From the NCBI GenBank assembly GCA_945956935.1, contig CAMFJD010000001.1:62001-126000 (forward strand): DNA of 64,000 nt. The letters are read 5' to 3'. The notes under the pieces were generated by a model, which was not told the origin of the DNA, ran no database searches, and worked only from the letters and a program-made list of their open reading frames with translations. Positions 11,825 through 63,418 of this stretch are shown here, one piece after another. The first letter of the stretch is position 1. Every line of letters begins with the position of its first letter. A program made the translations under genes and the position numbers. The DNA is from an uncultured Bacillota bacterium (GTDB lineage: Bacteria > Bacillota_I > Bacilli_A > Culicoidibacterales > ZOR0006).

Positions 11825-12562
11825 ATGGAAATAGTGATTGAATCTGTTCAAAATCCTAAAGTAAAGGAATGGACCAAATTAAAACAAAAAAAATATCGAC
11901 AACAACATCAACGTTTTATTGTTGAAGGGGAACATTTAGTAGAGGAAGCTTTGGCAGCTAGAGCAGTAGAAGTTATTATAACTACTCGCAGTATGTTAAC
12001 TGCTGATGTACCTGTATACCGTGTGACCGAAGCAATATTGGCAAAATTGACAGCTACTCCAGCACATCAAGACATTATGGCGATTTGCACAATGCCACAG
12101 TTGAGTAATGTGGATGGGAACCGTTTATTGTTGCTTGATACAGTACAAGACCCTGGAAATGTTGGAACACTTATTCGGAGTGCTCTTGCTTTTGGAATAG
12201 AAGCAGTTGTATTAGGAGAAGGAAGTGTGGATATCTATAATGAAAAAGTGTTACGTGCGACACAGGGAGCTATTTTTCATTTACCAATTGTCACAAAGGA
12301 TTTAAAGATATATATCCCTACACTGCAAGCTCGGGGGGTTGCTGTGATTGGAACGAGTTTTTCACATGCAACGAATTTAAGTCACTTAGCAATTCCGCAT
12401 AAGTGGGCAATTTTGTTAGGAAATGAAGGTCAAGGTGTATCAGAACAATTGTTACAAATGACGAATGAAAATGTATATATTGAAATGAATGATCAAGCAG
12501 AGAGTCTGAATGTTGGAGTAGCAGGAAGTATTTTAATGTATACATTTTCTCAAAAAGCATAA
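11825..12562 (+). CDS. TrmH/SpoU-family RNA 2'-O-methyltransferase (YsgA type)
   Basis: A 245-residue SPOUT methyltransferase. An N-terminal substrate-binding domain (VQNPKVKEWTKLKQKKYRQQ) precedes the knotted catalytic domain with motif 1 DPGNVGTLIRSA, motif 2 ILLGNEGQGVS and motif 3 ESLNVGVAGSILMY. The enzyme methylates ribose 2'-OH in rRNA (23S in characterised relatives). It often stands directly upstream of pheST in Firmicutes, as here, though separated by a long structured spacer. Confidence 0.92.
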   Translation: MEIVIESVQNPKVKEWTKLKQKKYRQQHQRFIVEGEHLVEEALAARAVEVIITTRSMLTADVPVYRVTEAILAKLTATPAHQDIMAICTMPQLSNVDGNRLLLLDTVQDPGNVGTLIRSALAFGIEAVVLGEGSVDIYNEKVLRATQGAIFHLPIVTKDLKIYIPTLQARGVAVIGTSFSHATNLSHLAIPHKWAILLGNEGQGVSEQLLQMTNENVYIEMNDQAESLNVGVAGSILMYTFSQKA

Positions 12563-12567
12563 TAAAA

Positions 12568-12742
12568 AACGATGTTTGCCAACAAAACATCGTTATAAAG
12601 TAGTCGGTTATATATAAAGGAAAGAAAAACGGTTTGAGAGAAATGAACATGAAATGACAACGATATGTTCATGACTAATTATGAAGGGTACACAATTAGC
12701 TCTCTAATCTTATAGTTATGTTGGCAAATAACTGTAAGATTA
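12568..12742. other. Gene-free stretch with successive stem-loops; two have complementary loops
   Basis: Stem H1: AACGATGTTT (12568-12577) with AAACATCGTT (12585-12594), loop gccaaca. H2: ATGAACAT (12643-12650) with ATGTTCAT (12665-12672). H3: CTAATT (12675-12680) with AATTAG (12694-12699). H4: 15 bp, 12705-12719 with 12728-12742, one G-U pair, loop gttggcaa. Loops of H1 and H4 are complementary (GCCAAC/GTTGGC; TTTGCCAAC and GTTGGCAAA if the flanks are counted). H1 could serve as a terminator but has no T run. The region may be an undescribed structured RNA or a decayed element. The following bases 12743-12950 are very AT-rich with no gene. Confidence 0.45.
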
Positions 12743-12989
12743 TATTTATTATACCTATTTTCTGATCATGAAAAATAAAAACATTCAGTAATTTTTTCTT
12801 TTTATTTAATTAATAATGATAATTTATTTTTATGATAATAAAATGATGAAAAAATATTGGATTCTAGTATAGGTAGTAGAAGATTTATTTGCATTTTTTG
12901 ATTAAATCGTCTAGAATAGTTAAGAAGCTACAAATTGGTAGAGATACCGTAGTGGATATAGTTAAAAACGTTGAAAAAGAAGTAGTAAC

Positions 12990-13227
12990 AATTTTAGTTA
13001 TGCAAAGAGAGAAATGTCTGTGGCTGTGAGCATTTTCATAATAGTAATTGTGAATTCGTCTTTTGAGTTATTCATTGTAAAGCTAAAGATTTTTAGGCGA
13101 AAATGGATCGGCATGCTTCCGTTATCAAGCAATAGAGCGTATTGTCTTATAAAAAGATAATAAACTTGGGTGGTACCGCGATTTTAATCGTCCCTTGAAT
13201 TTTTCAAGGGACGTTTTTTGTTTTTTG
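12990..13227 (+). promoter_or_regulatory. Phenylalanine T-box leader of pheST
   Basis: The T-box core gggtggtaccgcg is at 13168-13180. It is followed by a terminator, CGTCCCTTGA (13189-13198) paired with TCAAGGGACG (13204-13213), plus a T run. A Phe codon TTC (13055-13057, in gaattcg) sits where the specifier loop is expected, after an AGAGAG-type stem I start near 13006. Uncharged tRNA-Phe would stabilise the antiterminator and switch pheST on. The specifier choice is inferred from position and the genes downstream. Confidence 0.88.
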
Positions 13228-63213: not shown

Positions 63214-63249
63214 TATAGACGTACAAGAAAAAACGTATGGATACGTTCT

Positions 63250-63366
63250 TTTTCTTCTCCCATCCAGACTGTACTGTCGGTACTTGAATTACACAAGTTC
63301 AACCATTGCCTAAGCACCGGTTCGCGGACTATAACCGCCGGTCGGGAATTTCACCCTGCCCTGAAG
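63250..63366 (-). promoter_or_regulatory. FMN riboswitch (RFN element)
   Basis: Read on the minus strand, the RFN core elements are all present: GGGCAGGGTGAAATTCCCGA, CCGGCGGTTATAGTCCGCGA, then CCGACAGTACAGTCTGGATG and GGAGAAG. Bound FMN would favour the downstream terminator and switch off ribU. Confidence 0.97.
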
Positions 63367-63418
63367 AAATATTTAATTATAGTATCAATATAAAAAAAAT
63401 TATGTTATTTGTCAAATA

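Follow-up and report, generated by a model that had tools for sequence, protein, structure and literature searches.

A conserved structured RNA whose kissing loops covary, beside the pheST T-box in the ZOR0006 lineage

Introduction

Purine and lysine riboswitches contain intramolecular kissing loops, in which loop-loop base pairing locks distant hairpins, as it would in the element described here; in our element, however, the two hairpins sit at the ends of the RNA, one on either side of a three-way junction, and no riboswitch family matches. Among the trans-acting small RNAs (sRNAs) of Gram-positive bacteria, the Rsa RNAs of Staphylococcus aureus carry a C-rich loop with a UCCC motif (PMC5826253). 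If it lies on the minus strand, our element would resemble them as an independent gene of ~175 nt with an intrinsic terminator at its end, and in displaying a conserved C-rich hairpin loop together with an unpaired pyrimidine tract, whereas it differs in that the loop reads ACCCUU rather than UCCC, the terminator kisses the 5′ hairpin, and no sequence relation was found. Comparative genomics has described lineage-specific candidate structured RNAs, e.g. 104 motifs (PMC2864571), and the evidence presented here is of the same type, conserved loops and covariation, although our element has two representatives only, both of one genus. The ‘ZOR0006’ lineage to which they belong has been reported from fish, crustaceans and insects in amplicon surveys, and a literature search for its RNA biology found none.

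Results

Locus and predicted fold

We analysed a 64,000-nucleotide stretch of an uncultured Bacillota genome (contig CAMFJD010000001.1, positions 62,001 to 126,000; hereafter the window), in which the interval 12563-12961 is flanked by a gene for a TrmH/SpoU-type rRNA methyltransferase (11825-12562) and by the pheS-pheT T-box (12962-13198), the same neighbours between which the initial annotation had placed the element. Its coordinates for four stems, H1 to H4, were all correct; its description of them as a simple array was not, as the stretch is predicted to fold into two hairpins, H1 and H4, with a three-way junction between them. The junction is created by an overlooked helix, P1 (GAGAG/CUCUC, 12636-12640/12700-12704), that encloses H2 and H3. 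The segment 12560-12760 folds with a predicted energy of −43.5 kcal/mol (z = −4.5), a value that none of 200 dinucleotide shuffles reached. A weak outer helix, P0 (12604-12616/12746-12756), consists mostly of A-U and G-U pairs and was left out of the pair count given below. The features of the locus, in window coordinates, are as follows.

12561-12567, minus strand: T run following H1 (an A run on the plus strand), also in ZOR0006: TTTTTATTTG
12568-12594: H1, a 10-bp hairpin with the 7-nt loop GCCAACA (12578-12584, plus sense)
12616-12630: unpaired tract, AAAGGAAAGAAAAAC on the plus strand and GUUUUUCUUUCCUUU on the minus strand, 14/15 identical in ZOR0006
12636-12640: 5′ strand of P1, GAGAG (GAGGG in ZOR0006)
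12643-12672: hairpin H2 (P2), loop TGACAAC (12655-12661) unchanged in ZOR0006, 2 of 6 counted pairs compensatory
12675-12699: hairpin H3 (P3), loop AAGGGT (12684-12689) unchanged in ZOR0006
12700-12704: 3′ strand of P1, CTCTC
12705-12742: hairpin H4 (P4), whose TGTTGGC (12719-12725; CGTTGGT in ZOR0006) pairs with the H1 loop
12739-12744, minus strand: TATAAT, −10-like
12743-12862: AT-rich block, ~73% of alignment columns identical with ZOR0006, no conserved structure
12888-12917: likely separate T-box promoter, TTTGCA-18-TAGAAT
12962-13198: T-box leader of pheST (RF00230, 119 bits)
13189-13213: terminator of the pheST T-box leader

Compensatory changes in the nearest relative

The nearest available relative is Firmicutes bacterium ZOR0006 (L039/L010, together G001), of the same genus as the genome of the window (G000), with which it shares 65% identity in the methyltransferase and 89% in PheS. 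Its interval between methyltransferase and T-box has the same neighbours and aligns with that of the window, and H1, the junction and H4 are retained despite about half of the paired bases differing. The initial annotation had proposed compensatory changes in homologues as the test of a structured RNA, and the outcome in ZOR0006 favours one: in an alignment of the two sequences, padded to hold the structural columns in register, 17 of 43 pairs are compensatory on both sides and 97.7% of cells are standard pairs, whereas shifting the 3′ partners out of register by 1-3 columns left 0-4 compensatory pairs and 34-47% paired. As there are two sequences only and structure informed the alignment, these counts are descriptive. 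All six helices, the kissing contact included, are preserved. The clearest case is H1 (homologue at L039:3730-3757), in which 8 of 10 pairs have changed on both sides with pairing kept, while the exposed sequences are nearly letter-for-letter the same in the plus sense, namely the loops UGACAAC and AAGGGU and the tract AAAGAAAGAAAAAC, i.e. AAA(G/A)GAAAGAAAAAC.

The loop-loop complement of H1 and H4 that had been proposed initially holds for the 6 bases strictly within the loops; the extension with closing bases is 10 rather than 9 (TTTGCCAACA/TGTTGGCAAA). The contact itself, as part of a structured RNA, is borne out in ZOR0006, where both loops are 7 nt long and complementary throughout: GCCAACA/TGTTGGC in the window has become ACCAACG/CGTTGGT, five pairs being constant and both outer pairs covarying. 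In the one close relative available, stems and end loops have thus changed in concert, which indicates a genuine folded RNA. On this comparative evidence we regard the ~175-base stretch as a real and conserved structured RNA that had not been listed before and whose kissing contact covaries.

Known classes and distribution

That no known leader type fits, as had been noted, agrees with a search of Rfam 15, in which no family reached its gathering score over the element and no weak match was plausible; only the neighbouring T-box was found and the weak matches were irrelevant. A divergent 6S, SRP or RNase P RNA was rejected, all three being found elsewhere in both genomes, as was a T-box leader, whose AGAGA-Stem I, specifier loop and TGGNACCGCG antiterminator occur only at 12962-13198. 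The RF00230 leader is thus the immediate neighbour of the element, which is separate, has a separate promoter and shows no T-box features. An sRNA of the C-rich-loop (UCCC) type was also considered; the unpaired UCCC motif is absent and the loop is ACCCUU in both species.

The pattern TGACAAC..AAGGGT..ACAA had real matches only in G000 and G001 among 395 genomes of the class, other matches being about as frequent as those of the reversed control, and its many matches in viral contigs arose by chance. A covariance model built from the window alone (R1) was too specific. A second model (R2), made from the two sequences and N-padded so that stem columns keep register, gave credible matches only in the same two genomes when run against 149 relatives, 395 genomes of the class and 392 of the phylum (overlapping samples, with stricter filters for searches over 40 genomes). 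Its weak matches in L218, L095 and L096 were rejected, P2/P3 being absent or broken. Two further members of the order lack the element before pheS (G002 and G003), and in G002 it is also absent after the methyltransferase; phage gave no match and plasmids AT-rich chance matches only. With no credible members beyond the two genomes, the family is, within the genomes sampled, confined to this lineage.

Strand of the element

The initial annotation had held that H1 lacks a T run and that readthrough on the plus strand is likely, which ignores that H1 and its T run form an apparent minus-strand terminator in both species. A terminator scan scored H1 and its T run in the window as a minus-strand intrinsic terminator; the scan of ZOR0006 did not list its H1, probably because of a one-base bulge. 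At the opposite end of the element the minus-strand TATAAT lies within a stretch of 15 bases that the two species share without change (TAAATATAATCTTAC, 12748-12734 on the minus strand), and the start of transcription is estimated near 12733. The RNAalifold covariation term is slightly larger on the minus strand (−8.5, 36 pairs) than on the plus strand (−7.25, 31 pairs), and just two pairs fail on the minus strand (columns 169 and 170), both at the expected start site. Against this strand, the paired CTTA(C/T)/GTAAG at the foot of H4 would fall outside a transcript starting at 12733.

The ~115 bp from TATAAT on are conserved in sequence, fold no better than chance and end before the pheST promoter, 12863-12934 not being conserved with ZOR0006. 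Conservation of sequence yet not of structure is expected of promoter DNA and favours the minus strand, so that the block 12743-12862 is likely promoter or regulatory DNA of a minus-strand RNA; it could also be regulatory DNA common to divergent promoters. An A:U hairpin at 12768-12806, considered as a plus-strand terminator, folds no better than shuffles. A search of viral contigs with a pattern from this block, for which only the ZOR0006 form was used, was a weak negative. Within the block, AATAATGATAA resembles half of a Fur-type box.

The same structured RNA may instead be read from the plus strand, lying in the 3′ end of the methyltransferase mRNA or being processed from it, and would then be a compact RNA of scaffold- or ligand-binding type in which the kiss fixes H1 to H4; we consider this a credible reading that falls short of even odds. 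On this strand its unpaired bases are rich in A (0.49) and G (0.22), as they are on the sense strand of the RNase P, SRP, T-box and FMN RNAs of these genomes, and only mildly in 6S, the minus version resembling an antisense strand. The U.G pair of the window H4 is good on the plus strand only, RNAfold draws P0 for either species when given the plus sequence, and the TATAAT of the minus strand has no recognisable −35 partner in either. However, the plus strand has neither a conserved promoter nor a terminator, H1 is followed by its T run on the minus strand in each of the two species, and an A.C mismatch in P3 of the window is a G.U pair on the minus strand. We lean to the minus strand, at somewhat better than even odds, because C/U-rich unpaired bases would be natural for an antisense-type sRNA.

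Discussion

The main reading, to which we give a probability of roughly 0.52, is that the stretch is an independent minus-strand sRNA gene of ~175 nt, with a start near 12733 and a terminator, H1, that would kiss the 5′ hairpin. The conserved stems, the kissing contact, the exposed sequences, the T run and the TATAAT motif of this model are computed features. From them we infer that transcription would start behind TATAAT (12744-12739) and end at H1 (12594-12568) as an intrinsic terminator, the transcript folding in 5′ to 3′ order into hairpin H4, the three-way junction (P1, H3, H2), the pyrimidine tract, which stays unpaired, and finally the terminator hairpin. The loop of the terminator would kiss that of the 5′ hairpin over 6-7 base pairs and tie the two ends, which would compact the RNA and could slow exonucleases. 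The RNA is probably a trans-acting regulator with pyrimidine-rich seeds, for which the ACCCUU loop, the GUUGUCA loop and the GUUUUUCUUUC tract are the candidates, and these may pair with purine-rich sites in mRNAs, e.g. ribosome-binding sites.

Most likely the element is a small RNA with a regulatory role in a single lineage of gut bacteria, to which it adds a well-supported unlisted RNA; the RNA itself is new, the kind of RNA is already known. Its covarying kiss between the 5′ hairpin and the apparent terminator hairpin offers a clean example, open to direct testing, of a small RNA closed end to end. We consider it unlikely that the element instead represents a new compact RNA class of the ZOR0006 lineage, in which the kiss would close a ring-like fold that protects the ends, shows two invariant loops and, unlike antisense sRNAs, binds a protein or ligand.

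In both genomes the element precedes the pheST T-box, and it might be a cis-acting extension of that leader, acting with the T-box. This is very improbable, as the T-box has a likely promoter of its own 3′ of the element in both genomes (TTGACG-17-TATACT in ZOR0006), which splits the element from the leader; the intervening 12863-12934 is not conserved, and other members of the order with a T-box-type leader before pheS lack the element there. Even less probable are chance hairpins in ordinary intergenic DNA with no RNA. AT-rich DNA is hairpin-prone, and under loose limits some 6-nt loop pair occurred in 1140 of 1500 shuffles of the AT-rich window, which is not significant, so that complementary loops alone are weak evidence where DNA has this composition. 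Under strict limits (both stems at least 10 bp, at least 4 G/C in the 6-nt contact) it was seen in 0 of 3000 shuffles of the window, and a hairpin of at least 8 bp and another of at least 4 bp with a 7-nt loop match arose at the homologous places of ZOR0006 in 2 of 20000, to which are added the compensatory pairs and the six helices kept. Least probable of all is a small open-reading frame as the selected feature: both genomes have, at matching positions, an ATG preceded by a purine stretch, and in ZOR0006 a frame of 28 codons with a perfect AGGAGG lies inside the junction (L039:3803-3899, plus strand), but the frame in the window is only four codons long (MNMK*), the lengths of the indels are not divisible by three and the changes in stems are compensatory.

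Two further features were recorded in the window. A minus-strand open-reading frame of 110 codons (12318-12650) overlaps the element and the methyltransferase gene; its codons are T-rich and it is probably due to chance. At the right edge of the window, an FMN riboswitch (121 bits) lies on the minus strand at 63248-63372.
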